Assembly: GCA_030998225.1 (NCBI GenBank)
Contig: JAPYXD010000686.1
Location: 4,216,001-4,280,000 of the forward strand
Length of the DNA: 64,000 nt
Origin: Diplolepis rosae
Taxonomy: Eukaryota > Arthropoda > Insecta > Hymenoptera > Diplolepididae
Direction: 5' to 3'
Shown here: piece by piece, positions 22,045-56,831 of the stretch
Layout of the letters: each line of letters opens with the position of its first letter
How positions within the stretch are numbered: the first letter of the stretch is position 1
Translations under genes and position numbers: made by a program
Notes under the pieces: model-generated
What the model was told of the DNA's origin: nothing
Seen by the model: only the letters and a program-made list of their open reading frames with translations
Databases searched by the model: none

Positions 22045-23787
22045 AGCAACAGGACACAACACATTACAGCGACACTAAACATAACACACCTAACAACCGA
22101 GAGAGCGTTCTGTGGGCGGGCAGGGTCTCGCCGAGGTGAACGCATGAGTCCAAGCACGGAGCAGACGCGTCCTGCAGCCCACCAACGGTAGTAGCCGCAA
22201 GGACTCTGCCAGCAGTAGGGCTGTTGCCGTCAGGATGGTTGCCAAGGGAGCCCTATAGACGGGCTTTTCCCTAGTGATGGGCCTGCCGGGCGCACGTGCC
22301 ACGACGGTTGTTCTGCGACTTTCAGGCGCGTGAGGACGCGGTATGGAGCGAAAGCATCAGGGGACCTTGAACAGGTCTCTTGATGCCGAATGAACGTACA
22401 CGGAGTGAATGCGGGGGGCCCCTAATCGGGGTATCGCCCCAAATGCGTATGCGGCGATGACGCTGAACTTCCCATGTGCGCTCTTGCGGTCACACCACAA
22501 TCACATGCACGACACCGACACCCACACACACCAGAATGAATGGGACGCTGAGTCAATGAGGCTGCGGCCGGCGCCTGGTGGATATTCCCGATAGACTAGC
22601 CAAGGGAGGAGTAGTAGCCTCTCGACCAGGGTAGGACGCGATGTCAGTACTTCACCTCTGTGGAAGTAATATGGGTAACCGTAAGTCCCTCCGATGTTCG
22701 ACCGCGAAGGGCAAAGATCCCGTGAAACCACATGTTAATCTGGGAAAACCGCTCACGATCCTACTGTCTGGAGCCAATGTCGGGGTTGAAATCATGGACG
22801 TCCGGGCGCAGGAATGAAGGATTACCTGGTCAGTATTTCCTCATATCCGACGCTGCGTAGGATAAATCGCACACCGTCTAGCCTTCAGCTCCTGAAGGAG
22901 CAAAGTACAAAGATGGAAAAGTTGGCCAGGGCTCTCAGTGTCATCCAGCAGGGTATGCTGAGAAATAACCCTGGCCACGTAAAGGACAGTGTTAACGAGG
23001 CATCAGAGGTGTTGAGCGGAATGCTCAACACCCACAAATGTCTTGTAGAAAGCGGGATGGAAATCCAGAAGAAGCTGGAATCCCACCCCGCCTCAAAAAA
23101 GATGGGTATCTTCCGGAGACTGCGCTCTGCGTCTCTGGGAGATACCCCCAAGAAGCTGACAAAGGGGGAGAAGAGGGTTGCTCCTTCTCCCCGAAGATCG
23201 GCTCCCCAAGAAAGGGAAGGCGGCATATCGCCGTCTTATGCTGCGGCCACCAGAGGCCAGACCCCGAAAAAGGATGGGGAATGGCAGCTGGTGGAGAAGA
23301 AGAAGAAGAAAAAAAAAGAGAAGAAGAAGAAAGAGGTTCCTGTGCCCTCTGCGCAGGAACACAACACAAAGGGAAAGTTGCCGAGGCGCTCCCCGGCCGC
23401 GAGGTCGGGCGACGCCATCAAGGTGTCGGCGAAGGACGGCCAGTCCTACGCCGAAATCTTGAGGGAAATGAAGGCGAAGGTCGACCCCCAGAAGGCAGGA
23501 CTTGAGGTCCTGTCTATCCGGAGGACCAGGAAGGAAGAAGTCCTTTTGGTCCTCAAAAAGGGGGGAGACGTTTCGGCCTTCCGAAAGGAGCTCGACCTGG
23601 CGGTCGGGGAAAGGGCGCAAATTTCAGCCCTGGTCTCGACGAGGTCCCTCGAAATTAGGGACCTCGACGAGACCGTTGAAAAAGAAGAGGTTGTGTCTGC
23701 CCTGTGCTTGGCATTGGGCAGACCAGCTTTTGAGGGGTCCTGCAGGCTCTTCACCCGCTTTGGTGGGGTGCAGACTGCAGTGATCCG
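22045..23787 (+). mobile_element. R1-clade retrotransposon copy 1: 5' part only
   Basis: It begins inside the 5' UTR (about 54 bases shorter than copy 3) directly after GTATAATTGAATA of a satellite monomer, the same monomer position used by copies 2 and 3. It carries diverged 5' UTR sequence, then a 368-bp internal deletion at 22,883/22,884 relative to copy 3 that removes the end of the 5' UTR and the ORF1 start. ORF1 follows and stops abruptly at 23,787, where satellite resumes in mid-monomer at GCACTAAATTC. ORF2, 3' UTR and poly(A) are missing. Retrotransposition normally truncates 5' ends, so the lost 3' end points to a later deletion or unequal exchange within the array. Confidence 0.88.
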
Positions 23788-23794
23788 GCACTAA
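22884..23794 (+). pseudogene. ORF1 (gag-like) fragment of copy 1
   Basis: The frame matches copy 3 ORF1 from LQLLKEQS to the block LFTRFGGVQTAV and then runs into satellite, ending by chance at a TAA. The original start codon lies in the deleted segment; the open frame extends upstream only through 5' UTR sequence. The Lys/Glu-rich low-complexity region (EKKKKKKKEKKKK) is present, the zinc knuckles are not. Divergence from copies 2 and 3 is much larger than between those two, so this is an older or different lineage of the family. Confidence 0.8.
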
Positions 23795-26700
23795 ATTCAG
23801 TATAACTGAATGAAGATATATTCATATGAAAATGTTTTATTAAATTGAATTAGTGCAACCCATTATTCAACTGTTAGCACTGAATTCATTATAATTGAAT
23901 AAAGAAATATTGAAATTAAAATGTTTTATTTTAATTGAATTAGTGCAAACCCATTATTGAAGGGTTAGCACTGAATTCATTATAATTGAATGAACAAATA
24001 TTGATTTTAAAATGTTTTATTTTAATTGAATTAGTGCAAACCCGTTATTGAACGGTTCGCACTGAATTCAGTATTATTGAATAAAGAAATATTGATATAA
24101 AAATGTATTATTAAATTGAATTAGTGCAACCCATTATTGAACTGTTAGCACTGAATTCAGTATAACTGAATAAAGAAATATTGATATGAAAATGTTTTAT
24201 TTAGTTGAATTAGTGCAAACCCATGATCGAACGGTTAGCACTAAATTCAGTATAATTGAATAAAGATATATTGATATGAAAATGTTTTATTTAATTGAAT
24301 TAGTGCAACCCATTATTGAACTGTTAGCACAGAATTCAGTATAATTGAATAAAGAAATATTGAAATTAAAATGTTTTATTTTAATTTTATTAGTGCAAAC
24401 CCATTATTGAACGGTAAGCCCTAAATTCAGTATAATTGAATATAGAAATATCGATATGAGAATCTTTTTATTTATTTGATTCGTGCAAACCCCTTATTGA
24501 ACGGTTAGCACTAAATTCAGTATAATTGAATAAAGAAATATTGATATGAAAATGTTTTATTTAGTTGAATTAGTGCAAACCCATAATTGAACGGTTAGCA
24601 CTAAATTCAGTATAATTGAATAAAGAAATATTGATATGAAAATATTTTATTTTATTGAATTAATGCAATTCCATTATCGAACGGTTAGCATTAAACTCAG
24701 TATAATTGAATAAAGAAAAATTGATATGATAATGTTTTATTTAATTGAATTAATGCAAACCCATTATCGAACGTTTACCATTAAATGCAGTATAATTGAA
24801 TATAGAAAAATTGATATGATAATGTTTTATTTAATTGAATTATTGCAAACCCATTATTGAACGGTTAGCACTAAATTCATTATAATTGAAAAAAGAAATA
24901 TTGATTTGAAAATGTTTTATTTTAATTGAATTAGTGCAAACCCGTTATTGAACAATTAGCACTAAATTCATTATAATTGAATAAAGAAAAATTGATATGA
25001 AAATGTTTTATTTTAATTGAATTAGTGCAAACCCATTATTGAACGGTTAGCATTAAATTCTGTATAATTGAATAAAGAAATATTGATATGAAAATGTTTT
25101 ATTTTAATTGAATTAGGGCAAACCCATTATCGAACGGTTACCATTAAATTTAGTATAATTGAATAAAGAAAAATTGGTATGATAATGTTTTATTTAATTG
25201 AATTAATGCAAACCCATTATTGAACAGTTAGCACTAAATTCAGTATAATTGAATAAAGATATATTGAAATTAAAATGTTTTATTTTAATTGAATTAGGGC
25301 AAACCCATTATTGATAGGTTAGCACTAAATTCAGTATAACTGAATAAAGATATATTGATATGAAAATGTTTTATTTTAATTGAATTAGTGCAAACCCAGT
25401 ATTGAACGGTTAGCACTAAATTCAGTACCATTGAATAAAGAAATATTAATATGAAAATGTTTTATTTAGTTGAATTAGTGCAAACCCATTATTGAAGGGT
25501 TAGCACTGAATTCATTATAATTGAATGAACAAATATTGATAATAAAATGTTTTATTTTAATTGAATTAGTGCAAACCCATTATTGAACGGTTAGCACTGA
25601 ATTCATTATAATTGAATAAAGAAAAATTGGTATGATAATGTTTTATTTAATTGAATTAATGCAAACCCATTATTGAACAGTTAGCACTAAATTCAGTATA
25701 ATTGAATAAAGATATATTGAAATTAAAATGTTTTATTTTAATTGAATTAGGGCAAACCCATTATTGATAGGTTAGCACTAAATTCAGTATAACTGAATAA
25801 AGATATATTGATATGAAAATGTTTTATTTTAATTGAATTAGTGCAAACCCAGTATTGAACGGTTAGCACTAAATTCAGTATTATTGAATAAAGAAATATT
25901 AATATGGAAATGTTTTATTTAGTTGAATTAGTGCAAACCCATTATTGAAGGGTTAGCACTGAATTCATTATAATTGAATGAACAAAAATTGATATTAAAA
26001 TGTTTTATTTTAATTGAATTAGTGCAAACCCGTTATTGAACGGTTAGCACTGAATTCATTTTAATTGAATATAGAAATATCGATATGAGAATGTTTTTAT
26101 TTATTTGAATTGGTGCAAACTCCTTATTTTACGGTTAGCATTAAATTCAGTATAATTGAATAAAGAAAAATTGATATGATAAAGTTTTATTTAATCTAAT
26201 TAATGCAAACCCATTAGTAAACGGTTAGCACTAATTAAAGTATAATTGAATAAAGAAAAATTGTTATGTTAATGTTTTATTTAATTGAATTAATGCAATT
26301 CCATTATTGAACGGTTAGCACTGAATTCAGTATAGTTGAATAAAGAAATATTGATATGAAAATATTTTATTTAATTGAATTAATGCAATTCCATTATTGA
26401 ACGGTTAGCATTAAACTCAGTATAATTGAATAAAGAAAAATTGATATGAAAATATTTTATTTAATTGAATTAATGCAATTCCATTATTGAACGGTTAGCA
26501 CTGAATTCATTATAATTGAAAAAAGAAATATTGATTTGAAAATGTTTTATTTTAATTGAATTAGTGCAAACCCGTTATTGAACAATTAGCACTAAATTCA
26601 TTATAATTGAATAAAGAAAAATTGATATGAAAATGTTTTATTTAATTGAATTAGTGCAAACCCATTATTGAACGGTTAGCACTGAATTCAGTATAATTGA

Positions 26701-29700
26701 ATAAAGAAATATTGATATGAAAATATTTTATTCAATTTAATTAATGCAATTCCATTATTGAACGGTTAGCACTAAATTCATTATAATTGAATAAAGAAAA
26801 ATTGAAATGAAAATGTTTTATTTAATTGAATTAATGCAAACCCATTATTGAACAGTTAGCACTAAATTCAGTATAATTGAATAAAGATATATTGAAATTA
26901 AAATGTTTTATTTTAATTGAATTAGGGCAAACCCATTATTGATAGGTTAGCACTAAATTCAGTATAATTGAATAAAGATATATTGAAATTAAAATGTTTT
27001 ATTTCAATTGAATTAGGGCAAACCCCTTATTGAACGGTTAGCACTAAATTCAGTATTATTGAATAAAGAAATATTAATATGGAAATGTTTTATTTAGTTG
27101 AATTAGTGCAAACCCATTATTGAAGGGTTAGCACTGAATTCATTATAATTGAATGAACAAACATTGATATTAAAATGTTTTATTTTAATTGAATTAGTGC
27201 AAACCCCTTATTTTACGGTTAGCATTAAATTCAGTATAATTGAATAAAGAAAAATTGATATGATAAAGTTTTATTTAATCTAATTAATGCAAACCCATTA
27301 GTAAACGGTTAGCACTAATTTCAGTATAATTGAATAAGGAAATATTGATATGAAAATATTTTATTTAATTGAATTAATGCAATTCCATTATTGAACGGTT
27401 AGCACTAAATTCATTATAATTGAAAAAAGAAATATTGATTTGAAAATGTTTTATTTTAATTGAATTAGTGCAAACCCGTTATTGAACAATTAGCACTAAA
27501 TTCATTATAATTGAATAAAGAAAAATTGATATGAAAATGTTTTATTTAATTGAATTAGTGCAAACCCATTATTGAACGGTTAGCACTAAATTCAGTATAA
27601 TTGAATAAAGAAATATTGATATGAAAATATTTTATTTAATTTAATTAATGCAATTCCATTATTGAACGGTTAGCACTAAATTCATTATAATTGAATAAAG
27701 AAAAATTGATATGAAAATGTTTTATTTAATTGAATTAATGCAAACCCATTATCGAACGGTTACCATTAAATGCAGTATAATTGAATAAAGAAAAATTGAT
27801 ATGATAATGCTTTATTTAATTGAATTAATGCAAACCCATTATTGAACAGTTAGCACTAAATTCAGTATAATTGAATAAAGATATATTGAAATTGAAATGT
27901 TTTATTTTAATTGAATTAGGGCAAACCCATTATCGAACGGTTACCATTAAATTTAGTATAATTGAATAAAGAAAAATTGGTATGATAATGTTTTATTTAA
28001 TTGAATTAATGCAAACCCATTATTGAACAGTTAGCACTAAATTCAGTATAATTGAATAAAGATATATTGAAATTAAAATGTTTTATTTTAATTGAATTAG
28101 GGCAAACCCATTATCGAACGGTTACCATTAAATGCAGTATAATTGAATAAAGAAAAATTGATATGAAAATGTTTTATTTAGTTGAATTAGTGCAAACCCA
28201 TAATTGAACGGTTAGCACTAAATTCAGTATAATTGAATAAAGAAATATTGATATGAAAATATTTTATTTAATTTAATTAATGCAATTCCATTATTGAACG
28301 GTTAGCACTAAATTCATTATAATTGAATAAAGAAAAATTGATATGAAAATGTTTTATTTAATTGAATTAATGCAAACCCATTATCGAACGGTTACCATTA
28401 AATGCAGTATAATTGAATAAAGAAAAATTGATATGATAATGCTTTATTTAATTGAATTAATGCAAACCCATTATTGAACAGTTAGCACTAAATTCAGTAT
28501 AATTGAATAAAGATATATTGAAATTGAAATGTTTTATTTTAATTGAATTAGGGCAAACCCATTATCGAACGGTTACCATTAAATTTAGTATAATTGAATA
28601 AAGAAAAATTGGTATGATAATGTTTTATTTAATTGAATTAATGCAAACCCATTATTGAACAGTTAGCATTAAATTCAGTATAATTGAATAAAGAAAAATT
28701 GATATGAAAATATTTTATTTAATTGAATTAATGCAATTCCATTATTGAACGGTTAGCACTGAATTCAGTATAGTTGAATAAAGAAATATTGATATGAAAA
28801 TATTTTATTTAATTGAATTAATGCAATTCCATTATTGAACGGTTAGCATTAAACTCAGTATAATTGAATAAAGAAAAATTGATATGAAAATATTTTATTT
28901 AATTGAATTAATGCAATTCCATTATTGAACGGTTAGCATAAAACTCAGTATAATTGAAAAAAGAAATATTGATTTGAAAATGTTTTATTTTAATTGAATT
29001 AGTGCAAACCCGTTATTGAACGGTTAGCACTGAATTCAGTATTATTGAATAAAGAAAAATTGATATGAAAATGTTTTATTTAATTGAATTAGTGCAAACC
29101 CATTATTGAACGGTTAGCACTAAATTCAGTATAATTGAATAAAGGAATATTGATATGAAAATGTTTTATTTTAATTGAATTAGTGCAAACCCAGTATTGA
29201 ACGGTTAGCACTAAATTCAGTATTATTGAATAAAGAAATATTAATATGGAAATGTTTTATTTAGTTGAATTAGTGCAAACCCATTATTGAAGGGTTAGCA
29301 CTGAATTCATTATAATTGAATGAACAAACATTGATATTAAAATGTTTTATTTTAATTGAATTAGTGCAAACCCGTTATTGAACGGTTAGCACTGAATTCA
29401 TTTTAATTGAATAAAGAAATATCGATATGAGAATGTTTTTATTTATTTGAATTGGTGCAAACCCCTTATTTTACGGTTAGCATTAAATTCAGTATAATTG
29501 AATAAAGAAAAATTGATATGATAAAGTTTTATTTAATCTAATTAATGCAAACCCATTAGTAAACGGTTAGCACTAATTAAAGTATAATTGAATAAAGAAA
29601 TATTGATATGAAAATACTTTATTTAATTGAATTAATGCAATTCCATTATTGAACGGTTAGCACTGAATTCAGTATAATTGAATAAAGAAATATTGATATG

Positions 29701-32214
29701 AAAATATTTTATTTAATTGAATTAATGCAATTCCATTATTGAACGGTTAGCATTAAACTCAGTATAATTGAATAAAGAAAAATTGATATGAAAATATTTT
29801 ATTTAATTGAATTAATGCAATTCCATTATTGAACGGTTAGCATTAAACTCAGTATAATTGAATAAAGAAATATTGATATTAAAATGTTTTATTTTAATTG
29901 AATTAGTGCAAACCCGTTATTGAACGGTTAGCACTGAATTCAGTATTATTGAATAAAGAAAAATTGATATGAAAATGTTTTATTTAATTGAATTAGTGCA
30001 AACCCATTATTGAACGGTTAGCACTGAATTCAGTATAATTGAATAAAGAAATATTGATATGAAAATATTTTATTCAATTTAATTAATGCAATTCCATTAT
30101 TGAACGGTTAGCACTAAATTCATTATAATTGAATAAAGAAAAATTGAAATGAAAATGTTTTATTTAATTGAATTAATGCAAACCCATTATTGAACAGTTA
30201 GCACTAAATTCAGTATAATTGAATAAAGATATATTGAAATTAAAATGTTTTATTTTAATTGAATTAGGGCAAACCCATTATTGATAGGTTAGCACTAAAT
30301 TCAGTATAATTGAATAAAGATATATTGAAATTAAAATGTTTTATTTTAATTGAATTAGGGCAAACCCCTTATTGAACGGTTAGCACTAAATTCAGTATTA
30401 TTGAATAAAGAAATATTAATATGGAAATGTTTTATTTAGTTGAATTAGTGCAAACCCATTATTGAAGGGTTAGCACTGAATTCATTATAATTGAATGAAC
30501 AAACATTGATATTAAAATGTTTTATTTTAATTGAATTAGTGCAAACCCCTTATTTTACGGTTAGCATTAAATTCAGTATAATTGAATAAAGAAAAATTGA
30601 TATGATAAAGTTTTATTTAATCTAATTAATGCAAACCCATTAGTAAACGGTTAGCACTAATTTCAGTATAATTGAATAAGGAAATATTGATATGAAAATA
30701 TTTTATTTAATTGAATTAATGCAATTCCATTATTGAACGGTTAGCACTAAATTCATTATAATTGAAAAAAGAAATATTGATTTGAAAATGTTTTATTTTA
30801 ATTGAATTAGTGCAAACCCGTTATTGAACAATTAGCACTAAATTCATTATAATTGAATAAAGAAAAATTGATATGAAAATGTTTTATTTAATTGAATTAG
30901 TGCAAACCCATTATTGAACGGTTAGCAGTAAATTCAGTATAATTGAATAAAGAAATATTGATATGAAAATGTTTTATTTAGTTGAATTAGTGCAAACCCA
31001 TAATTGAACGGTTAGCATTAAACTCAGTATAATTGAATAAAGAAAAATTGATATGATAATGTTTTATTTAATTGAATTAATGCAAACCCATTATCGAACG
31101 TTTACCATTAAATGCAGTATAATTGAATAAAGAAAAATTGATATGATAATGTTTTATTTAATTGAATTAATGCAAACCCATTATTGAACGGTTAGCACTA
31201 AATTCATTATAATTGAAAAAAGAAATATTGATTTGAAAATGTTTTATTAAATTGAATTAGTGCAACCCATTATCGAACGGTTAGCATTAAATTCAGTAGA
31301 ATTGAATAAAGGAATATTGATATTAAAATGTTTTATTTTAATTGAATTAGTGCAAACCCGTTATTGAACAATTAGCACTAAATTCATTATAATTGAATAA
31401 AGAAAAATTGATATGAAAATGTTATATTTAATTGAATTAGTGCAAACCCATTATTGAACGGTTAGCACTAAATTCAGTATAATTGAATAAAGAAAAATTG
31501 ATATGATAATGTTTTATTTAATTGAATTAATGCAAACCCATTATCGAACGGTTACCATTAAATGCAGTATAATTGAATAAAGAAAAATTAATATGATAAT
31601 GTTTTATTTAATTGAATTAATGCAAACCCATTATTGAACAGTTAGCACTAAATTCAGTATAATTGAATAAAGATATATTGAAATTAAAATGTTTTATTTT
31701 AATTGAATTAGGGCAAACCCATTATTGAACGGTTAGCACTAAATTCACTATAACTGAATAAAGATATATTGATATGAAAATGTTTTATTTTAATTGAATT
31801 AGTGCAAACCCAGTATTGAACGGTTAGCACTAAATTCAGTATTATTGAATAAAGAAATATTAATATGGAAATGTTTTATTTAATTGAATTAGTGCAACCC
31901 ATTATTGAACTGTTAGCACAGAATTCAGTATAATTGAATAAAGAAATATTGAAATTAAAATGTTTTATTTTAATTTTATTAGTGCAAACCCATTATTGAA
32001 CGGTAAGCCCTAAATTCAGTATAATTGAATATAGAAATATCGATATGAGAATCTTTTTATTTATTTGATTCGTGCAAACCCCTTATTGAACGGTTAGCAC
32101 TAAATTCAGTATAATTGAATAAAGAAATATTGATATGAAAATGTTTTATTTAGTTGAATTAGTGCAAACCCATAATTGAACGGTTAGCACTAAATTCAGT
32201 ATAATTGAATAAAG
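23788..32214 (+). repeat. 90-bp satellite array, block 2
   Basis: About 94 monomers of 89-91 bp in one orientation. The shared frame is a poly-purine AATAAAGAAATATTGATATG segment, a T-rich TGTTTTATTT segment, then a dyad with GTGC (or ATGC, GGGC) on one side and GCAC (or GCAT) on the other around AACC...GGTT. Several monomer types recur, distinguished by TGCAATTCC, GGGCAAACCC or GTGCAACCC, in long repeated orders: for example the run around 26,880-27,400 recurs 3,342 bp later at 30,220-30,740. No gene is inserted in this block. Confidence 0.96.
32199..32214 (+). repeat. Target site duplication, left copy (copy 2)
   Basis: GTATAATTGAATAAAG, repeated exactly at 37,488-37,503 after the poly(A). 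A single copy of the same stretch in identical surroundings occurs at 40,730-40,745, the empty paralogous site. Confidence 0.92.
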
Positions 32215-32684
32215 CCTCCCGACCAGGGTAGGACGCGATGTCAGTACCTTACCTCTGTGGAAGTAATATGGGTAAATGTAAGTCCCTCCGGTGTTCGGCC
32301 GCGAAGGGCAAAGATCCCGTGAAACCACATGTTAAACTGGGAAAACCGCTCACGTTTCTACTGTCTGGAGCCAATTTCGGGGTTGAAATCATGGACGCCC
32401 GGGCGCAGGAATGAAGGATTACCTGGTCAGTATTTCCTTATACCCGACGATGCGTAGGATAAATCGCACACCGTCTAGCCTGAAGTCCGGGTCAGGTGTC
32501 GGGGCGGACCCGGCACCGCTCGGTCGATAGGGGTGACGTTAAACCTTTAGCATCATTATGGCGCGGGCCTATCCCGTAACCTTTTTTACTAGCTTCATAT
32601 AATGTGCCGATAGGATCGACCATCCGATAAGCCGCTTCTCGGTTTCGGTGCACATAACTAGGGATCTATACAGGCGGGGATAGT

Positions 32685-32704
32685 AGCCCTACTGCGGTAG
32701 GGCT
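32685..32704 (+). promoter_or_regulatory. Hairpin in 5' UTR just before ORF1 (copy 2)
   Basis: A perfect 8-bp stem (AGCCCTAC/GTAGGGCT) with a TGCG tetraloop, about 40 bases before the ORF1 ATG. The identical structure is in copy 3 at 52,022-52,041. It could affect translation or RNP formation; no function is shown. Confidence 0.5.
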
Positions 32705-32745
32705 CCCATGATGGGCGAACCGTCTCAAGACACGACGACATTAAT

Positions 32746-37000: not shown

Positions 37001-37116
37001 CTCTCATGCTCCAGTCTGAACAGATTTGGATGTTTATCGAGTCATTCGTCACCCTGGTGATGAAGGCGAGGGAGCTCGATGAGCGTGCAGAGCGTGGCAA
37101 CAATGGGGGCCAGTAG
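34085..37116 (+). pseudogene. ORF2 (endonuclease-reverse transcriptase) of copy 2, two frameshifts
   Basis: The endonuclease domain runs from VKFLQLNLGRGKEAQ (catalytic Asn) through LLISEQHKW (Glu), VYSCYFSPN (Tyr), LIAGDFNSKSPEWGE (Asp, Asn) to LSDHQCIEFSI (Asp, His). The reverse transcriptase has ASSYRPICLLDTMGKLLE, NQFGFRKGRSTVDAI, ISIDIRNAFNT (first Asp), GAPQGSRVGPLVWN and FADDALVV (the DD pair). A C-terminal CRYCGSLVDNAEHALFVC forms the CCHC-type finger of R1-clade enzymes. Breaks relative to a continuous frame are a G run of six (34,572-34,577; copy 4 has seven) and an extra C at about 35,776. All catalytic residues are intact. There is no ATG before the endonuclease; ORF2 overlaps the ORF1 stop in the -1 frame. 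Confidence 0.92.
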
Positions 37117-37487
37117 AAATCGCATCGGGGCCTACACCCGCGGTTATGCGTCTTGGGCGGACTTGGCTGTTCGCGTCGACCGGGGGAGGAATCTCCTTAT
37201 TCCTTTTCTGGTTGGCGCGGTTGGCCGGCCTGCCTAACGGGCGTGTGCCCGCGGATGGGAGTCCCGGGCGAACGGACGACGGAAGAGTCGTACGCGACTT
37301 TAAGCTAGAACCAACTGCCCGCGAAGTTTAAAGCCGAAAGGCGGTTCCGCGGGCGGTGCATTGGTTCGCGAGAGGGGGTTTTTTGGTTTTAACAGGTATG
37401 CCTAGACCCGTCCTAGGAGAGTCCTGTACAACGTCTATAAAAGATTTCGCCATTTTTCCTCTTCACAAAAAAAAAAAAAAAAAAAAA
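37117..37487 (+). other. 3' UTR of copy 2 with stable hairpins and poly(A)
   Basis: GC-rich, against the AT-rich array. It contains a stem GCCCGCG/CGCGGGC (37,317-37,354) that encloses GCC-GAAA-GGC, a GNRA tetraloop hairpin, and slightly upstream AGTCG-TACG-CGACT. In R1-clade and R2 elements the 3' UTR is the RNA part recognised by the reverse transcriptase, so a structured end is expected here. It closes with CAC and a run of about 21 A. Confidence 0.7.
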
Positions 37488-43400: not shown

Positions 43401-46400
43401 CCATTATTGAACTGTTAGCACAGAATTCAGTATAATTGAATATAGAAATATCGATATGAGAATGTTTTTATTTATTTGATTCGTGCAAACCCCTTGTTGA
43501 ACGGTTAGCAGTAAATTCAGTATAATTGAATAAAGAAATATTGATATGAAAATGTTTTATTTAGTTGAATTAGTGCAAACCCATAATTGAACGGTTAGCA
43601 CTAAATTCAGTATAATTGAATAAAGAAATATTGATATGATAATGTTTTATTTAATTGAATTAATGCAAACCCATTATCGAACGTTTACCATTAAATGCAG
43701 TATAATTGAATATAGAAAAATTGATATGATAATGTTTTATTTAATTGAATTAATGCAAACCCATTATTGAACGGTTAGCACTAAATTCATTATAATTGAA
43801 AAAAGAAATATTGATTTGAAAATGTTTTATTAAATTGAATTAGTGCAACCCATTATTGAACGGTTAGCACAGAATTCAATATAATTGAATAAAGAAAAAT
43901 TGATATGAAAATGTTATATTTAATTGAATTAGTGCAAACCCATTATTGAACGGTTAGCACTAAATTCACTATAATTGAATAAAGAAATATTGATATGAAA
44001 ATATTTTATTTAATTTAATTAATGCAATTCCATTATTGAACGGTTAGCATTAAACTCAGTATAATTGAATAAAGAAAAATTGATATGATAATGTTTTATT
44101 TAATTGAATTAATGCAAACCCATTATCGAACGGTTACCATTAAATGCAGTATAATTGAATAAAAGAAAAATTAATATGATAATGTTTTATTTAATTGAAT
44201 TAATGCAAACCCATTATTGAACAGTTAGCACTAAATTCTGTATAATTGAATAAAGATATATTGAAATTAAAATGTTTTATTTAATTGAATTAGTGCAAAC
44301 CCATTATTGAACGGTTAGCACTAAATTCACTATAACTGAATAAAGATATATTGATATGAAAATGTTTTATTTTAATTGAATTAGGGCAAACCCATTATTG
44401 GACGGTTAGCACTAAATTCAGTATTATTGAATAAAGAAATATTAATATGGAAATGTTTTATTTAATTGAATTAGTGCAACCCATTACTGAACGGTTAGCA
44501 CTGAATTCAGTATAGTTGAATAAAGAAATATTGATATGAAAATGTTTTATTTAGTTGAATTAGTGCAAACCCATAATTGAACGGTTAGCACTAAATTCAG
44601 TATAATTGAATAAAGAAATATTGATATGAAAATATTTTATTTTATTGAATTAATGCAATTCCATTATCGAACGGTTAGCATTAAACTCAGTATAATTGAA
44701 TAAAGAAAAATTGATATGATAATGTTTTATTTAATTGAATAATTGCAAACCCATTATCGAACGTTTACCATTAAATGCAGTATAATTGAATATAGAAAAA
44801 TTGATATGATAATGTTTTATTTAATTGAATTAATGCAAACCCATTATTGAACGGTTAGCACTAAATTCATTATAATTGAAAAAAGAAATATTGATTTGAA
44901 AATGTTTTATTAAATTGAATTAGTGCAACCCATTATCGAACGGTTAGCATTAAATTCAGTATAATTGAATAAAGAAATATTGATATTAAAATGTTTTATT
45001 TTAATTGAATTAGTGCAAACCCGTTATTGAACGGTTAGCACTGAATTCAGTATTATTGAATAAAGAAAAATTGATATAAAAATGTATTATTAAATTGAAT
45101 TAGTGCAAACCCATTATTGAACGGTTAGCACTAAATTCAGTATAATTGAATAAAGAAATATTGATATGAAAATATTTTATTTAATTTAATTAATGCAATT
45201 CCATTATTGAACGGTTAGCAATAAACTCAGTATAATTGAATAAAGAAAAATTGATATGATAATGTTTTATTTAATTGAATTAATGCAAACCCATTATCGA
45301 ACGGTTACCATTAAATGCAGTATAATTGATTAAAGACAAATTGATATAATAATGTTTTATTTAATTGAATTAATGGAAACCCATTATCGAACGGTTACCA
45401 TTAAATGTAGTATAATTGAATAAAGAAAAATTGTTATGATAATGTTTTATTTAATTGAATTAATGCAAACCTATTATTGAACGGTTAGCACTAAATTCAT
45501 TATAATTGAAAAAAGAAATATTGATTTGAATATGTTTTATTAAATTGAATTAGTGCAACCCATTATCGAACGGTTAGTATTAAATTCAGTATAATTGAAT
45601 AAAGAAATATTGATATTAAAATGTTTTATTTTAATTGAATTAGTGCAAAGCCGTTATTGAACGGTTAGCACTGAATTAAGTATTATTGAATAAAGAAATA
45701 TCGATATGAGAATGTTTTATTCAGTTGAATTAGTGCAAACCCATAATTGAACGGTTAGCACTAAATTCAGTATAATTGAATAAAGAAATATTGATATGAA
45801 AATATTTTATTTTATTGAATGAATGCAATTCCATTATCGAACGGTTAGCATTAAACTCAGTATAATTGAATAAAGAAAAATTGATATGATAATGTTTTAT
45901 GTAATTGAATTAATGCAAACCCATTATCGTACTTTTACCATTAAATGCAGTATAATTGAATATAGAAAAATTGATATGATAATGTTTTATTTAATTGAAT
46001 TAATGCAAACCCGTTATTGAACGGTTAGCACTAAATTCATTATAATGGAAAAAAGAAATATTGTTTTGAAAATGTTTTATTAAATTGAATTAGTGCAACC
46101 CATTATCGAACGGTTAGCTTTAAATTCAGTATAATTGAATAATGATATATTGATATTAAAATGTTTTATTTTAATTGAATTAGTGCAAAGCCGTTATTGA
46201 ACGGCTAGCACTGAATTCATTATAATTGAATAAACAAAAATTGATTTGAATATGTTTTATTAAATTGAATTAGTGCAACCCATTATCGAACGGTTAGCAT
46301 TAAATTCAGTATAATTGAATAAAGAAATATTGATATGAAAATGTTTATTTTAATTGAATTAGGGCAAATCCATTATTGAACGGTTAGCACTAAATTCAGT

Positions 46401-49400
46401 ATAACTGAATAAAGATATATTGATATGAAAATGTTTTATTTTAATTGAATTAGGGCAAACCCATTGTTGGACGGTTAGCTCTAAATTCAGTATAACTGAA
46501 TAAAGATATATTGATATGAAAATGATTTATTAAATTGAATTAGTGCAACCCATTATTCAACTGTTAGCACTGAATTCAGTATAATTGATTAAAGAAATAT
46601 TGAAATTAAAATGTTTTATTTTAATCGAATTCGTGCAAACCCATTATTGAAGGGTTAGCACTGAATTCATTATAATTGAACGAACAAATATTGATGTTAA
46701 AATGTTTTATTTTAATTGGATTAGTGCAAACCCGTTATTGAACGATTAGCACTGAATTCAGTATAATTGAATAAAGAAATATTGATATGAAAATGTTTTA
46801 ATAAATTGAATTAGTGCAACCCATTATTGAACTGTTAGGACAGAATTCAGTATAATTGAATAAAGAAATATTGATATGAAAATGTTTTATTTAGTTGAAT
46901 TAGTGCAAACCCATGATCAAACGGTTAGCACTAAATTCACTGTAATTGAATATAGAAATATTGATATGAAAATATTTTATTTAAGTGAATTAATGCAATT
47001 CCATTATTGAACGGTTAGCATTAAACTCAGTATAATTGATTAAAGAAAAATTGATATAATAATGTTTTATTTAATTGAATTAATGCAAACCTATTATCGA
47101 ACGGTTAGCACTAAATTCAGTATAATTGAATAAAGAAATATTGATATGAAAATGTTTATTTTAATTGAATTAGGGCAAATCCATTATTGAACGGTTAGCA
47201 CTAAATTCAGTATAACTGAATAAAGATATATTGATATGAAAATGTTTTATTTTAATTGAATTAGGGCAAACCCATTATTGGACGGTTAGCTCTAAATTCA
47301 GTATAACTGAATAAAGATATATTGATATGAAAATGTTTTATTAAATTGAATTAGTGCAACCCATTATTCAACTGTTAGCACTGAATTCAGTATAATTGAA
47401 TAAAGAAATATTGAAATTAAAATGTTTTATTTTAATTGAATTAGTGCAAACCCATTATTGAAGGGTTAGCACTGAATTCATTATAATTGAATGGACAAAT
47501 ATTGATTTTAAAATGTTTTATTTTAATTGAATTAGTGCAAACCCGTTATTGAACGGTTAGCACTGAATTCAGTATTATTGAATAAAGAAATATTGATATA
47601 AAAATGTATTATTAAATTGAATTAGTGCAACCCATTATTGAACTGTTAGCACTGAATTCAGTATAATTGAATAAAGAAATATTGATATATAAATGTTTTA
47701 TTTAGTTGAATTAGTGCAAACCCATTATTGAACGGTTAGCACTAAATTCATTATAATTGAAAAAAGAAATATTGATTTGAAAATGTTTTATTTTAATTGA
47801 ATTAGGGCAAACCCATTATCGAACAGTTAGTATTAAATTCAGTATAATTGAATAAAGAAAAATTGATATGATAATGTTTTATTTAATTGAATTAATGCAA
47901 ACCTATTATTGAACGGTTAGCACTAAATTCATTATAATTGAAAAAAGAAATATTGATTTGAAAATGTTTTATTAAATTGAATTAGTGCAACCTATTATCG
48001 AACGGTTAGCATTAAATTCAGTATAATTGAATAAAGAAATATTGATATGAAAATGTTTTATTTTAATTGAATTAGGGCAAACCCATTATTGAACGGTTAG
48101 CACTAAATTCAGTATAACTGAATAAAGATATATTGATATGAAAATGTTTTATTTTAATTGAATTAGGGCAAACCCATTATTGGACGGTTAGCACTAAATT
48201 CAGTATAACTGAATAAAGATATATTGATATGAAAATGTTTTATTAAATTGAATTAGTGCAACCCATTATTCAACTGTTAGCACTGAATTCAGTATAATTG
48301 ATTAAAGAAATATTGAAATTAAAATGTTTTATTTTAATTGAATTCGTGCAAAACCATTATTGAACTGTTCGCACAGAATTCAATATAATTGAATAAAGAA
48401 ATATTGAAATTAAAATGTTTTATTTTAATTGAATTAGTGCAAACCCGTTATTGAACTGTTAGCACTGAATTCAGTATAATTGAATAAAGAAATATTGATA
48501 TGAAAATGTTTTATTTAGTTGAATTAGTGCAAACCCATGATCGAACGGTTAGCACTAAATTCAGTATAATTGAATAAAGAAATATTGATATGAAAATGTT
48601 TTATTTAGTTGAATTAGTGCAATTCCATTATTCAACGGTTAGCATTAAACTCAGTATAATTGAATAAAGAAAAATTGATATGAAAATGTTTTAATAAATT
48701 GAATTAGTGCAACCCATTATTGAACTGTTAGCACAGAATGCAGTATAATTGAATAAAGAAATATTGAAATTAAAATGTTTTATTTTAATTTAATTAGTGC
48801 AAACCCATTATTGAACGGTAAGCACTAAATTCAGTATAATTGAATAAAGAAATATCGATATGAGAATGTTTTTATTTATTTGATTCGTGCAAACCCCTTA
48901 TTGAACGGTTAGCACTAAATTCAGTATAATTGAATAAAGAAATATTGATATGAAAATGTTTTATTTAATTGAATTAGTGCAAACCCGTTATTGAATGTTA
49001 AGCACTAAATTCAGTATAAGTGAATAAAGATATATTGGTAAGAAAATGTTTTAATAAATTGAATTAGTGCAACCCATTATTGAACTGTTAGCACAGAATT
49101 CAGTATAATTGAATAAAGAAATATTGAAATTAAAATGTTTTATTTTAATTTAATTAGTGCAAACCCATTATTGAACGGTTAGCATTAAATTCAGTATAAT
49201 TGAATAAAGAAATATTGATATGAAAATGTTTTATTTTAATTGAATTAGTGCAAACCCATTATTGAAGGGTTAGCACTAAATTCATTATAATTGAAAAAAG
49301 AAATATTGATTTGAAAATGTTTTATTAAATTGAATTAGTGCAACCTATTATCGAACGGTTAGCATTAAATTCAGTATAATTGAATAAAGAAATATTGATA

Positions 49401-50920
49401 TGAAAATGTTTTATTTAATTGAATTAGTGCAAACCCATGATCGAACGGTTAGCATTAAATTCAGTATAATTGAATAAAGAAATATTGATATGAAAATGTT
49501 TATTTTAATTGAATTAGGGCAAATCCATTATTGAACGGTTAGCACTAAATTCAGTATAACTGAATAAAGATATATTGATATGAAAATGTTTTATTTTAAT
49601 TGAATTAGGGCAAACCCATTGTAGGACGGTTAGCACTAAATTCAGTATAACTGAATAAAGATATATTGATATGAAAATGGTTTATTAAATTGAATTAGTG
49701 CAACCCATTATTCAACTGTTAGCACTGAATTCAGTATAATTGATTAAAGAAATATTGAAATTAAAATGTTTTATTTTAATTGAATTAGTGCAAACCCATT
49801 ATTGAAGGGTTAGCACTGAATTCAGTATAATTGAATGAACAAATATTGATGTTAAAATGTTTTATTTTAATTGGATTAGTGCAAACCCGTTATTGAACGA
49901 TTAGCACTGAATTCAGTATAATTGAATAAAGAAATATTGATATGAAAATGTTTTAATAAATTGAATTAGTGCAACCCATTATTGAACTGTTAGCACAGAA
50001 TTCAGTATAATTGAATAAAGAAATATTGATATGAAAATGTTTTATTTAGTTGAATTAGTGCAAACCCATGATCGAACGGTTAGCACTAAATTCACTATAA
50101 TTGAATATAGAAATATTGATATGAAAATATTTTATTTAATTGAATTAATGCAAACCCATTATCGAACGGTTACCATTAAATGCAGTATAATTGATTAAAG
50201 ACAAATTGATATAATAATGTTTTATTTAATTGAATTAATGGAAACCCATTATCGAACGGTTACCATTAAATGTAGTATAATTGAATAAAGAAAAATTGTT
50301 ATGATAATGTTTTATTTAATTGAATTAATGCAAACCTATTATTGAACGGTTAGCACTAAATTCATTATAATTGAAAAAAGAAATATTGATTTGAATATGT
50401 TTTATTAAATTGAATTAGTGCAACCCATTATCGAACGGTTAGCATTAAATTCAGTATAATTGAATAAAGAAATATTGATATGAAAATGTTTATTTTAATT
50501 GAATTAGGGCAAATCCATTATTGAACGGTTAGCACTAAATTCAGTATAACTGAATAAAGATATATTGATATGAAAATGTTTTATTTTAATTGAATTAGGG
50601 CAAACCCATTATTGGACGGTTAGCTCTAAATTCAGTATAACTGAATAAAGATATATTGATATGAAAATGTTTTATTAAATTGAATTAGTGCAACCCATTA
50701 TTCAACTGTTAGCACTGAATTCAGTATAATTGAATAAAGAAATATTGAAATTAAAATGTTTTATTTTAATTGAATTAGTGCAAACCCATTATTGAAGGGT
50801 TAGCACTGAATTCATTATAATTGAATGGACAAATATTGATATTAAAATGTTTTATTTTAATTGAATTAGGGCAAACCCATTATTGAACGGTTAGCACTAA
50901 ATTCAGTATAAATGAATAAA
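37488..50920 (+). repeat. 90-bp satellite array, block 3
   Basis: The longest uninterrupted block, about 149 monomers, opening with the right copy of the target duplication of retrotransposon copy 2 (37,488-37,503). Runs of monomers recur in the same order at several distances; the stretch after 37,488 matches that after 40,730, and the stretch around 41,280-41,880 recurs near 42,340 and 45,140. Monomer types are those of block 2. No insertion or gene is present. Confidence 0.96.
50906..50920 (+). repeat. Target site duplication, left copy (copy 3)
   Basis: GTATAAATGAATAAA here corresponds to GTATAATTTAATAAA at 56,832-56,846, with two differences; each copy has one substitution from the satellite consensus. 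The equivalent empty site in the paralogous duplicate is at 47,572. Confidence 0.8.
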
Positions 50921-52082
50921 ACTCCGCCATTGCCGGTCCCAAGCCCGGATGCGAAAGGAGGAGGGGACACACAGACAGCAACATGACACTACATACTTAC
51001 AGCAACACTGAACGCAACACAACCAATACCCGAGACGGCCTTTCGCGGGAGGGCAGTGTCTCACCCACAGAAACGTGTGAGGCCATGCACGGAGCAGACG
51101 CGTCCTGCAGCCCGCCAATGGTAGTAGCCGAAAGGACTCTGCCAACAGCTGGGCTGTCGCCGTTAGGATGGCCGTCAAGGGAGTCTTATAGACAGACTTT
51201 CCCTAGCGGTGGGCCTGCCGGGCGCACGCGTTTGAATGGTCTCTCCTCAACCTTCGGACGCGTGAGGACGCGGTGTGGAGCAAAAAGCATCAGGGGACCT
51301 TGAACAGGTTCCTTGATGCCGCATGAGTGGAACCAGTGTGAATGCGGGGGGCCCCTTAATCGGGGTATCAACCCAAATACGCATGCGGCGGTGACGCTGA
51401 ACTTCCCTCGTGCCCTTCTCGCGGTCACATCACAACCACATGCACGATACCGACACCCACACATACCAGTACGAATGCGTTGCCGAGTGAATGGGCTGCG
51501 GCCGGCGCCTGGTGGATATTCCCGATAGACTAGCCAAGGGAGGAGTAGTAGCCTCCCGACCAGGGTAGGACGCGATGTCAGTACCTTACCTCTGTGGAAG
51601 TAATATGGGTAAATGTAAGTCCCTCCGGTGTTCGGCCGCGAAGGGCAAAGATCCCGTGAAACCACATGTTAAACTGGGAAAACCGCTCACGTTTCTACTG
51701 TCTGGAGCCAATTTCGGGGTTGAAATCATGGACGCCCGGGCGCAGGAATGAAGGATTACCTGGTCAGTATTTCCTTATACCCGACGATGCGTAGGATAAA
51801 TCGCACACCGTCTAGCCTGAAGTCCGGGTCAGGTGTCGGGGCGGACCCGGCACCGCTCGGTCGATAGGGGTGACGTTAAACCTTTAGCATCATTATGGCG
51901 CGGGCCTATCCCGTAACCTTTTTTACTAGCTTCATATAATGTGCCGATAGGATCGACCATCCGATAAGCCGCTTCTCGGTTTCGGTGCACATAACTAGGG
52001 ATCTATACAGGCGGGGATAGTAGCCCTACTGCGGTAGGGCTCCCATGATGGGCGAACCGTCTCAAGACACGACGACATTAAT
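50921..52082 (+). promoter_or_regulatory. 5' UTR of copy 3, presumed internal promoter region
   Basis: GC-rich non-coding leader. Possible structures are CCGGGTC...GACCCGG near 51,825-51,851 and the perfect hairpin at 52,022-52,041. Elements of this clade use an internal promoter or co-transcription with their target; a core promoter cannot be pointed out by eye. The ORF1 ATG at 52,083 follows. Confidence 0.5.
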
Positions 52083-53423
52083 ATGAATTTTAAAAATTTT
52101 GAAAAAAATAAAGGAGATGAAGCGGTGAAGGCGCCTGATGCGCAGTCACACACTCCTCCAGGGGCTGATGGATGGAAAGACGTCCTTCAGCTCCTGAAGG
52201 AGCAAAGTAAGAAAATGGAGAGGTTGGCCAGGGCTCTCAGCGTTATCCAGCAGGGTATGCTGAGAAACAACCCTGGCCATGTTAAGGACAGTGTGAGTGA
52301 GGCTACGGAGGTGTTGAGCGGAATGCTCAACACCCACAAGTGCTTACTAGAGAGCGGGGTGGAAATCCAGAAAAGGATGGAATCCCACCCCGCCGTCAAA
52401 AAGATGGGTATCTTCCGGAGACTGCGCTCTGCGTCTCTGGGAGATACCCCAAAAAAGCTGACAAAGGGGGAGAAGAGGGTTGCTCCTTCTCCCCCCGAAG
52501 ATCGGCTTCCCAAGAAAGGGAAGGGCGGCATACCGCCAACTTACGCTGCGGCCACCAGAAGCCAAACCCCAAAAAAGGATGGGGAATGGCAGCTGGTGGA
52601 GAAGAAAAAAAAGAAAAAAATAAAAAAAGAGAAGAAAAAAGAGGTTCCTGTGCCATCTGCGCAGGAACCTAAAACAAAGGTGAAGTTGGCGAGGCGCTCT
52701 CCGGCCGCACGGTCGGGCGACGCTATCAGGGTGTCGGCGAGGGATGGAGAGTCCTACGCCGATATCCTGAAGGCTATGAAGGCGAAAGTAAACCCCCAGA
52801 ACGCAGGGGCGGAGGTCCTCTCCATTCGGAGAACCAGGAGGGAGGAGATTCTCCTGGTCCTCAGAAAGGGGGGTGACGTCTCGACCTTCGAAAAGGCGCT
52901 CGACCAGGCGGTCGGAGAGAAGGCCGAAGTTAAATCTTTGGTCTCGAAGAGGTCCCTTGAAGTTAGGGACCTCGACGAGACAGTCACAAGAGAAGAGGTT
53001 GTTGCAGCGCTTTGCATCGCACTGGGCAAGCCAGACCTCGGTGACCAGTGCAGGCTGTACAAACGCTTTGGCGGTGTGCAGACTGCGGTGGTCCGTTTAA
53101 CCGAGGCGGACGCCCAGAGCTTGCTCGGGCTTGGTAGACTAAGGGTAGGGTGGGTGAACTGCCGCATCCGAGAGCATGTCGAGGTTGCCCGGTGCTTCAG
53201 GTGCCAGGGATACGGCCATGTGTCGCGTGGCTGCGCGCTTCCAGGCAGGAAGGATGCCTGCTGGAGGTGTGGGGGCGCGTCACACGTGGCCAAGGAGTGC
53301 AAGGCTCCCCCTCGGTGCCTGACTTGTACTGATAGGGGCGAAAAAGATGTCGCCCATGCTTCGGGGAGCGGTTCTTGCCCAATATTCAGGGCGGAGCTCC
53401 GGAGGTTGAGAGGTGGAAAGTGA
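52083..53423 (+). CDS. ORF1 (gag-like RNA-binding protein), intact
   Basis: 446 residues, ATG at 52,083 preceded by ATTAAT. The N-terminal third is helical in character (LQLLKEQSKKMERLARAL, then NNPGHVKDSVSEATEVLSGM). A basic low-complexity stretch near residue 180 (EKKKKKKIKKEKKK) may be a nuclear or RNA-binding signal. A middle domain follows (VLSIRRTRREEILLVLRKGG and LEVRDLDETVTREEVVAAL). Three zinc knuckles close the protein: 371-384 (CFRCQGYGHVSRGC), 393-406 (CWRCGGASHVAKEC) and 412-432 (CLTC, then H and C with wider spacing). The pattern of three knuckles is that of R1-clade ORF1 proteins, which package the element RNA. The stop TGA overlaps ORF2, read in the -1 frame. It is the only uninterrupted long gene of the element in this window. 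Confidence 0.92.
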   Translation: MNFKNFEKNKGDEAVKAPDAQSHTPPGADGWKDVLQLLKEQSKKMERLARALSVIQQGMLRNNPGHVKDSVSEATEVLSGMLNTHKCLLESGVEIQKRMESHPAVKKMGIFRRLRSASLGDTPKKLTKGEKRVAPSPPEDRLPKKGKGGIPPTYAAATRSQTPKKDGEWQLVEKKKKKKIKKEKKKEVPVPSAQEPKTKVKLARRSPAARSGDAIRVSARDGESYADILKAMKAKVNPQNAGAEVLSIRRTRREEILLVLRKGGDVSTFEKALDQAVGEKAEVKSLVSKRSLEVRDLDETVTREEVVAALCIALGKPDLGDQCRLYKRFGGVQTAVVRLTEADAQSLLGLGRLRVGWVNCRIREHVEVARCFRCQGYGHVSRGCALPGRKDACWRCGGASHVAKECKAPPRCLTCTDRGEKDVAHASGSGSCPIFRAELRRLRGGK

Positions 53424-56400
53424 AATTTCTACAGCTCAACCTCGGGAGAGGGAAGGAAGCCCAGAACCTTCTGATGCAGACTGCCAGGGAGAGGGGAGCC
53501 GATGTGTTGCTCATTAGTGAGCAACACAAATGGTCCGAAAACTCTGCTTGGTACCAGGATGCATCAAGGAGGGCTGGGATCCTTGTCTGCAGCCCTGATT
53601 TGAGCATCGCGGAGTTCCTGGAGACCGACGCGGGGTTCGTTTGGGTGGAGGTGGCGGGGGTACGTGTGTACAGCTGCTACTTCTCCCCCAACGATCCTTT
53701 CGAGATTTTCGAGACCCAGATCCTCCTCCTTGAGGAAAGCCTCAAAGAGGCTAGTGGGCGGTCCCTTATTGCGGGTGACTTTAATAGTAAGTCGCCCGAG
53801 TGGGGAGAAGCCCGTCTGGACAGGAGGGGAATCTTGGTCGGTGAGATGGTCGCCAGGAATGACCTGATCGTGTTGAATCGGGGCAGGGATTTTACGTTCA
53901 GACGAGGAGCGGGGGGTCGATTATCGACCTCACGATTGCCGCGCCCCGTCTTGCCTCCAGGATAGGCGACTGGTGCGTCCTCGATGTAATAACATTGAGT
54001 GACCACCAGTGCATTGAGTTTAGCATCCAGGAACGGAGTCACCCAGTGAATACGGGAAGGGGCGGCAAGGTAAGGAGCCCCTCCTGGAACACAAAACGAC
54101 TCAGAAAAGACAAGCTTCGGGAACATCTTGAAGGAAACCAAGCTCATAGATGAGCTTGGTTGGGCAAGGTCTGCTGGGTCGTTGGAGGACACTGTGCGCG
54201 CGGCGAGGCGGAAAGTGGTCGCAGCATGCGACCACTCCATGCCTCGCCGCGGGCCCAGGCGTACCGGGGACTCGATGTACTGGTGGAACGACCAGTTGTC
54301 CGTCCTGCGTCGAAAGTGCCTTACAGCGCGGCGGAGTTTTACCCGCTCAAAGGGTGATCCTCTGCTGCGCGAGGCATGGAAAAAAGCAAAATCAGCTCTG
54401 AGGCAAGGCATAAAAAAAGCCGACTTCAGTGCTGGAAAGACTTGATCGGAGAAGTCGAGAAGGATCCATGGGGTCTCGCCTTCAAAATAGTCACTAAGAG
54501 ATTGGTGACTAGAAGAAAGACCCCGGGCCTGGATAGTGCCGATCGTGTCAAGTACATCGTGCGAAGCTTGTTCCCGCATGTAGAGCCGTTCCAAAGACAG
54601 GACCGAAGTTCCTGCGTGGTCCGGGGCGAAGAACTCTTCACTCTCGAAGAACTAAAGAGAGCGGGTGGAAGGCTCAAGGCAAACACAGCGCCGGGGATCG
54701 ACGGGTTGCCGAACGAGATCCTCAAAGAGGTGATCGGGGTATACCCGGAGATGCTCCTAGAAGTCTTCAACTCCTGTCTTCGGGAGGGAGGTTCTTCGCA
54801 GACTGGAAGAAGCAGAGGTTGGTCCTGCTGAGGAAAGGCAACAAACCTCTAGGAGATGCCTCATCGTATAGGCCAATATGTTTATTGGATACGATGGGGA
54901 AACTTCTGGAGGAAATGATCCTACAAAGACTACAGGGTCACATGGTCCGCGAGAATGGTCTGCTCGGAAAACCAGTTCGGCTTTCGGAAAGGCAGGTCCA
55001 CAGTCGACGCCATCCAGGCAGTGGTGGACATCGCCACTAAAGCAAGAAGAGGAACTGGTAAGCGTAAGGGATTCTGCGCGTTGATCAGCATTGACATACG
55101 CAATGCGTTTAATACCGCGAGATGGAACATCTGCATCGAGGCGATGGTGCGGAAAAAGGTTCCAGACTACCTGTTACGAATGATAGATGACTATCTGAGC
55201 GACAGGTGGGTGATATACGAGGGCGACAAATGGTCTCTCAAGGAAGAGATGACATGTGGCGCCCCTCAAGGGTCGCGGGTAGGTCCACTCGTCTGGAACG
55301 TCATGTACGACGATTTCCTGCGCATGGACCTGCCTGCTGGAACGAGCATCATCGGCTTCGCGGATGACGCACTTGTCGTGTGCGCCGCTGACGACGTCAA
55401 AATCCTGGAGCTGAGGATCAATGATAGTCTGTGGCGGGCAAAGCGTTGGTTGGATAGCAGATGCCTGAAAATGGCCCCTGAGAAGACCGAGGCTTTGCTG
55501 GTCACAGACAGGAGATCCTTCAAATACCCGAGGATCGTTCTCGGGGAACATGAAATCAAGTGGAAAAAGAGCATTAAGTACCTGGGTGTGCAGTTGGATC
55601 GAAGGCTTAGCTTCGGCGAACACCTGCAGATCGCGACTGCCAAAGCCATCCAGTGTGGGGCCGCCCTGACTCGGCTCATGCCCAACATTGGTGGTCCTAG
55701 GGAAGCTAAGAGAAGGCTGGTGGCGAGCGTGGTAAATTCGAAGCTGCTTTATGCAGCTCCGATCTGGACAAGTGCCCTTAACAACCATGCTATCCTGAAG
55801 AAGCTGTTCTCGGCACAGAGAGGTGTGGTGATGAGAATTGTCTCAGCATACCGAACTGTGTCGACGAGTGCTGTGCTGGTCCTGGCGAGCGTCCCGCCAA
55901 TAGATTTATTGGCGGAGGAAAGGCAGGAGACCTTTCAGCTTCGCAAGGAGCTTACCTGCGCCGACCTGCAGGAAATCGCTCGCGCGAAGGAGGCCATCCG
56001 CAAGGATGGAAGGCGCAGACTCGTCGAGAAATGGCAGACGAGATGGCATGGTGACCAAACCGGGAGATGGACACACCGTCTGATCCCGGAGCTCGCCACC
56101 TGGCTGGATAGAAAGCACGGTCAAGTCGGCTTTTACCTGGCGCAAGCGCTTTCGGGCCATGGTTGCTTTAATGCGTACCTGAAGCGCTTCAAAAAAGAGA
56201 CGATGAGTCGTGCCGCTACTGCGGTTCCCTTGTGGATAATGCAGAGCACGCACTCTTCGTCTGCGCAAAGTGGGGCGCGGCAAGGGAGGCCCTCGGTCAG
56301 GCAGTGGGTGCCGAGCTCACTCCTGACACGATGGTCTCTCTCATGCTCCAGTCTGAACAGATTTGGATGTTTATCGAGTCATTCGTCACCCTGGTGATGA

Positions 56401-56453
56401 AGGCGAGGGAGCTCGATGAGCGTGCAGAGCGTGGCAACAATGGGGGCCAGTAG
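53424..56453 (+). pseudogene. ORF2 (endonuclease-reverse transcriptase) of copy 3, several frameshifts
   Basis: Same domain order and catalytic residues as in copy 2: endonuclease (LQLNLGRG, LISEQ, GDFNSKSPEWGE), reverse transcriptase (ISIDIRNAFNT, GAPQGSRVGPLVWN, FADDALVV) and the C-terminal CCHC finger, which lies partly out of frame. Breaks relative to copy 2 or 4 are a G run of six at 53,911-53,916, an extra G near 54,133, one A fewer in the run at about 54,411, one G fewer near 54,786, an extra G at about 54,961 and one A fewer near 56,191. At 55,131, where copy 2 is broken, copy 3 is in frame, so the two copies complement each other. The stop is TAG at 56,451-56,453. Confidence 0.92.
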
Positions 56454-56803
56454 AAATCGCATCGGGGCCTACACCCGCGGTCCTGCGTCTTGGGCGGACT
56501 TGGCTGTTCGCGTCGACCGGGGGAGGAATCTCCTTATTCCTTTTCTGGTTGGCGCGGTTGGCCGGCCTGCCTAACGGGCGTGTGCCCGCGGATGGGAGTC
56601 CCGGGCGAACGGACGACGGAAGAGTCGTACGCGACTTTAAGCTAGAACCAACTGCCCGCGAAGTTTAAAGCCGAAAGGCGGTTCCGCGGGCGGTGCATTG
56701 GTTCGCGAGAGGGGGTTTTTTGGTTTTAACAGGTATGCCTAGACCCGTCCTAGGAGAGTCCTGTACAACGTCTATAAAAGATTTCGCCATTTTTCCTCCT
56801 CAC

Positions 56804-56831
<28 letters not shown>
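56454..56831 (+). other. 3' UTR of copy 3 with stable hairpins and poly(A)
   Basis: Equivalent to the 3' UTR of copy 2, with hairpins at 56,623-56,636 (AGTCG-TACG-CGACT) and 56,654-56,691 (GCCCGCG/CGCGGGC enclosing GCC-GAAA-GGC). The poly(A) is longer (about 29 A). Conservation of both structures in two copies is not independent evidence, because the copies are nearly identical. Confidence 0.7.

Follow-up and report, generated by a model that had tools for sequence, protein, structure and literature searches.

Repeated use of one position in a 90-bp satellite by an otherwise dispersed R1-like retrotransposon of Diplolepis rosae

In this work, we describe a stretch of 64,000 nucleotides of the Diplolepis rosae genome (contig JAPYXD010000686.1, positions 4,216,001 to 4,280,000, forward strand), hereafter the window, in which a 90-bp tandem satellite array, spanning about 20.7–63.15 kb, is interrupted by three related insertions sharing one orientation. 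The insertions are copies of a long interspersed nuclear element (LINE), which the original prediction took for an R1-clade retrotransposon specialised on this satellite. Its endonuclease and reverse transcriptase identify it as an R1-like LINE; membership of the R1 clade proper is likely, judging from the sequence.

The satellite array and its three insertions

The array and the element copies are listed here in window coordinates; all are on the forward strand.

20700..22045, satellite array, left part; monomers more diverged, 5' junction of copy 1 at its end
22046..23787, copy 1 of the R1-like element; begins near element position 55, internal deletion, 84–86% identical to copy 3
23788..32212, satellite; 93 full monomers counted, contains the insert-free segment 24355-24879 matching the two flanks of copy 2
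32213..37487, copy 2; lacks the first ~627 bases (5' truncation, start at element position ~628), A21 tail
37488..50919, satellite; 149 full monomers counted, insert-free segments 40475-40999 (copy 2) and 47319-47840 (copy 3)
50920..56831, copy 3; full length, begins AACTCCGCC as dispersed full-length copies do, A28 tail
52038..53423, open reading frame 1 (ORF1), copy 3; 461 codons from stop to stop, C-terminus resembling a zinc knuckle
53336..53965, apurinic/apyrimidinic endonuclease (APE)-type part of ORF2, copy 3; Pfam and match to solved structures
54919..56397, reverse transcriptase part of ORF2, copy 3; ORF2 frameshift-broken
56832..63153, satellite; 70 full monomers counted, insert-free segment 59736-60257 matching the flanks of copy 3

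Identity between copies 2 and 3 is 99.5%. A true 3' end is missing from copy 1, which breaks off at element position ~2173 and continues into the satellite at monomer phase 78; its lost 3' part looks like a later deletion. The coding content is that of a two-ORF element: Pfam recognises an endonuclease (Exo_endo_phos_2, E 4e-10; Exo_endo_phos, E 5e-6) and a reverse transcriptase (RVT_1, E 7e-24), while the ORF1 zinc knuckle is matched by zf-CCHC with E 7e-4, just below Pfam's cut-off. By eye, three CCHC-like Cys/His motifs were found in the ORF1 translation and one in that of ORF2. Scanning of the two C-terminal pieces at a threshold of E 0.001 gave no RNase H family, and the reverse transcriptase piece had no relatives in the genomic-contig or viral-contig collections searched. 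Frameshifts interrupt ORF2 in copy 2 as well as in copy 3, one break being common and the others different; the breaks may reflect assembly error.

Beyond the array, positions 16101-17768 contain a relic of the element, 90–92% identical. It extends from mid-ORF1 to just past the stop codon of ORF2 but has lost most of its reverse transcriptase region, and an ATG in non-element DNA upstream opens a short frame across its zinc-knuckle part.

At the left edge of the array (20700-21433) the monomers have a different consensus and are more diverged. A 39-base satellite stretch had no match among the viral contigs searched. Derivation of the satellite from a known RNA gene was rejected, the window containing neither an Rfam match at gathering thresholds, ribosomal DNA (rDNA) included, nor a tRNA.

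Junctions in the array and beyond the window

The target stretches adjoining the three copies, again on the forward strand, are as follows.

22032..22045, GTATAATTGAATAA, target stretch 5' of copy 1, by direct reading
32199..32212, 5' target-duplication copy of copy 2 (GTATAATTGAATAA, possibly plus AG)
37488..37502, 3' target-duplication copy of copy 2, by comparison with insert-free segments
50906..50919, 5' target-duplication copy of copy 3 (GTATAAATGAATAA), by direct reading
56832..56845, 3' target-duplication copy of copy 3 (GTATAATTTAATAA), by direct reading

Read directly, the 5' junctions fall after GTATAATTGAATAA in copies 1 and 2 and after its one-base variant GTATAAATGAATAA in copy 3. 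On the 3' side, GTATAAT comes directly after the poly(A) of copy 3 (A28) and that of copy 2 (A21), and wrap-around alignment places it at monomer phase 0. The predicted agreement of the 5' junctions among copies in the same orientation, and of the stretch that follows poly(A) in copies 2 and 3, is thus confirmed.

Such agreement might also arise if one old insertion had been multiplied by amplification or exchange within the array, its junction phase being kept. Near-identical block duplications are indeed present: eight pairs, 0.7–1.4 kb long and 98–99.9% identical, were detected by a 60-mer method between 26606 and 61121, indicating that the array was rearranged recently. However, insert-free segments of the array match the 5' and 3' flanks of copies 2 and 3 contiguously, with an overlap of about 15 bp. 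For copy 2, 797/800 bases of the joined flanks match at 40475 and 781/800 at 24355; for copy 3, of 799/800 bases, 781 match at 47319 and 779 at 59736, the monomer directly 3' of this copy being more diverged than its insert-free match. Since these segments match the joined flanks with duplications of about 15 bp, copies 2 and 3 are separate insertions, and multiplication of a single insertion was rejected for both. Copy 2, in particular, entered an array already block-duplicated. Moreover, copy 2 is 5'-truncated where copy 3 is full length, the flanking monomers differ among satellite copies, and copy 1, though about 15% diverged, has the same 5' junction. Multiplication within the array is thus, on sequence comparison, largely refuted for copies 2 and 3, and as a general explanation we consider it very improbable. 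The independent insertions originally proposed are supported, with two corrections on copy 1: a true 3' end is absent, and identity to copy 3 is only 84–86%.

The search was extended to the assembly (758 Mb, 428 contigs), in which the window lies near the end of a 4.46 Mb contig, C358. A search with the 3' untranslated region gave 2706 first-look candidates, the best 40 of which were scored, and an exact 25-base tag of the 3' end has 196 occurrences, against 0 for the control, with the first 100 of these places listed. Two gapped junction patterns were also used. The first had one match, C229:78450, which is the copy of C229:78436; the second matched at C169:16258, C229:95894, C72, copy 3 and C130, the bases printed for the last of these not being satellite.

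In all, six distinct satellite 3' junctions were found at phase 0 and on one strand: copies 2 and 3, C358:4395141, C72, C229:78436 and C229:95894. The call for C72 allows for As merging with the tail, its monomer having A instead of G. The further full-length satellite copy C358:4395141 has both its 5' and 3' junctions at the same place as the window copies, so that the 5' junctions of copies 1, 2 and 3 and of this copy coincide, and that of C72 agrees in its variant monomer. For C229:78436, the slice on the 5' side consists wholly of satellite and ends short of the element. Use of a single monomer position, as first proposed from the window, therefore extends to C358, C229 and C72/C169.

C169 carries variant satellite monomers, so that C72 is not the only contig ahead of C229 to hold satellite. 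The printed flank at C169:16258 is that of C72 and the two were counted as one event; identity of the 3' flank over the printed bases is a further point in favour of multiplication of an older insertion. The identical element-satellite junction also suggests that C72 (32.7 kb) may be an alternative haplotype of C169. Elsewhere on this contig, at C169:54021-54132, a 3'-end tag is followed by a satellite-like 8-mer in reverse orientation.

Genome-wide distribution and target preference

The 3' flanks of 60 copies were read, in 30 loci (L033 among them) followed by 5, 19 and 6 slices. These copies are no random sample: the query was copy 3, and satellite detected beforehand on C72 and C229 was part of the reason for choosing them; five of the 40 scored copies are outside the set. 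Of the 60 copies, 56 lie outside the satellite, and the four inside are copy 3, C358:4395141, C72 and C229:78436, copy 2 being a fifth case besides. Inspection of the printed 3' flanks by eye showed no run of telomeric repeats; the target, a 90-bp satellite or scattered DNA, is thus not of the TRAS/SART type.

These figures bear directly on the proposed specialisation, according to which the element would be a genuine specialist, bound to the satellite as R1 is to rDNA, or TRAS and SART to telomeres, its dispersed copies being escapes. Position and strand are common to the six satellite 3' junctions, as expected of a specialist, and the satellite appears enriched in copies. From 1709 exact 16-mers genome-wide, scaled by the ratio in the window (326 monomers, 154 exact 16-mers), its size is roughly estimated at 326 kb, or 0.043% of the assembly, and 0.08 of the 196 tags would be expected there; at least 4, from 3 distinct events, were found. 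Against this stand the 56 copies located elsewhere and the quality of the dispersed insertions: among 20 read through, 11 reach the full-length 5' end and 13 carry a target duplication, with identities of 98.9–99.9% to copy 3 in the main matches; they are not rare escapes. The 3' flanks being mostly outside the satellite, an outcome that the original prediction itself named as its refutation, the claim of specialisation was wrong as stated; strict satellite specificity is refuted as an exclusive habit, and a specialist with escapes has, in our judgement, very little probability.

Dispersed insertions were used to define what the element favours elsewhere. A target duplication was found in 21 of the 37 dispersed copies examined on the 5' side, 13–15 bases long in 20 and 17 in one. 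Seven of the 20 read-through copies were left out of the target model, for want of a clean duplication or because they lie within a TAA repeat, as were 9 of 18 further slices, without a full-length 5' end in the slice (among them L060, with a truncated start in repetitive flank). The satellite copy L059 was kept apart, and L052, whose duplication matches at 13/15 bases, was retained. For L031, a search of the window for an insert-free segment returned a great many equally good candidates, none of which could be preferred. The base preceding the A-run in the 21 targets is T in 11, C in 8 and G in 2 (T or C in 19/21), so dispersed targets appear to share only a weak preference, for a pyrimidine before A.

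Two observations concern individual dispersed loci. In L015 / L045, a copy lies inside a (TAA)n run and the start of another is found just past the run. In L041, at 6600-8130 (72-1602 of the reverse complement), a 79–81% relative of the element adjoins a young copy, and an older related family or subfamily thus seems to be present in the genome.

The satellite site fits the dispersed pattern, ranking 6th of the 180 strand positions of the consensus monomer under the 21-site model, with a median rank of 5 over 124 real monomers, but it is never first. It could therefore be argued that targeting is of the ordinary loose kind, the satellite site being one of several permissive ones and the agreement among junctions a matter of chance and small sampling. 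However, five sites score better, and yet all six 3' junctions use this one, as do the readable 5' junctions (copies 1–3, C358:4395141 and C72). The probability of five junctions falling on any one site is about 5e-5 under the model; computation thus supports the earlier statement that agreement by chance would be rare, and makes an ordinary loose LINE an improbable account. The site is permissive, but the 21-site model does not explain its use above others.

Five positions outrank the satellite site in the sequence model, which indicates that something beyond that model is at work. Chromatin may set the position, if phased nucleosomes or a bound protein left one stretch per monomer open. A longer sequence preference would fit the data equally well; we hold chromatin to be unlikely as the determining factor, though not as improbable as the alternatives above.

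We therefore favour, with a probability of about 0.72, an R1-like LINE with an APE-type endonuclease and loose targeting genome-wide, for which one position and strand of the satellite is a strongly preferred site, or hotspot. Several points weigh against this view. Satellite copies can share ancestry, as the identical printed flanks of C72 and C169 illustrate, and neither copy 3 nor C72 has a perfect target duplication. The position model derives from 21 sites, and a longer motif could be missed. The enrichment depends on a rough satellite size taken from exact 16-mers; diverged monomers are uncounted, and it is thus overstated. The scan for other phases is limited, in either orientation, to gaps outside the 6–66 bp range and to an 8-base motif by which variant monomers go undetected (copy 2, C358:4395141 and C229:78436 among them). 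Finally, three candidate matches in opposite orientation were found, at C169:54021 (-), C283:3416895 and C424:9197239; the one on C169, a contig that also carries satellite, is a possible exception.

Outside the array, the window contains an imperfect palindrome of about 208 bases at 14146-14353 (self-complementary match 81%) and, right past the array, a separate 32/64-bp tandem repeat at 63427-63556.

Mechanism and comparison with known elements

An R1-like LINE with an APE-type endonuclease would be expected to move by target-primed reverse transcription. The bottom strand would be nicked at a pyrimidine/A step and the poly(A) RNA copied from the nicked end; a cut of the top strand 13–15 bases downstream would then produce the short target duplication. 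For the strand order of the cuts we rely on the established mechanism; the duplications, tails and truncations themselves were observed directly. Within the 90-bp satellite, AAATTC^AGTATAATTGAATAA would be strongly preferred, on one strand, which would account for all satellite insertions found so far being at the same base. The satellite site may match an extended endonuclease preference that dispersed sites meet only in part, and a regular chromatin on the array perhaps helps site choice.

It is tempting to place the element between dispersed and site-specific life: the endonuclease would already have one strongly preferred sequence, by coincidence a site that the satellite offers thousands of times, and resident copies could seed a specialising lineage. 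We offer this as a tentative suggestion, possible rather than probable. The case bears on the route from a loose LINE to a site-specific one. Each monomer is a natural test substrate with 180 strand positions, one of which the element has used repeatedly while scattering elsewhere; a single endonuclease and a single 90-bp DNA would thus suffice for a direct test of whether target choice is based on sequence or chromatin.

Among solved structures, the endonuclease best matches that of TRAS1, from the telomeric repeats of Bombyx mori (E 9e-8), followed by that of R1Bm, from 28S rDNA (E 8e-6); PDB holds few LINE endonucleases, and this ranking separates clades weakly. R1 has a two-ORF plan and a target duplication of 14 bp, and R1Bm resembles the element described here in its two-ORF plan and short duplication. 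It differs in its rDNA target, whereas no rDNA is matched by Rfam in the window and targeting is loose.

The R1 clade has been noted for target specificity, Mino, RT and R7 being directed to AC repeats, 28S and 18S genes, respectively (PMC3124438); none of the targets given there is a satellite, in contrast to the case presented here. R1-clade elements are also found in telomeric repeats (PMC7265360). Among the openly licensed papers found in literature searches, no title or abstract opening names an R1-clade element targeting a satellite. A partial preference for a satellite, derived from U2 genes, is described for the Ciona LINE YURE, which is assigned there to NeSL/Utopia, among the families that encode a restriction-like endonuclease (PMC4640811). 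In contrast, the Diplolepis element has an endonuclease of the APE type, and the window matches no Rfam family.

The closest parallel is with TRAS1 and SART1, which likewise use a fixed base within a tandem repeat, SART1 being also poly(A)-tailed. In TRAS, the insertion point lies between C and T on the CCTAA strand (PMC7265360). The nick in the satellite would also be C^T if the A were counted outside the duplication, this A being ambiguous with the tail; we have placed it one base beyond the TRAS-like C^T. The two telomeric elements differ in their target: here the repeat is a 90-bp satellite, and most of the copies read are dispersed.

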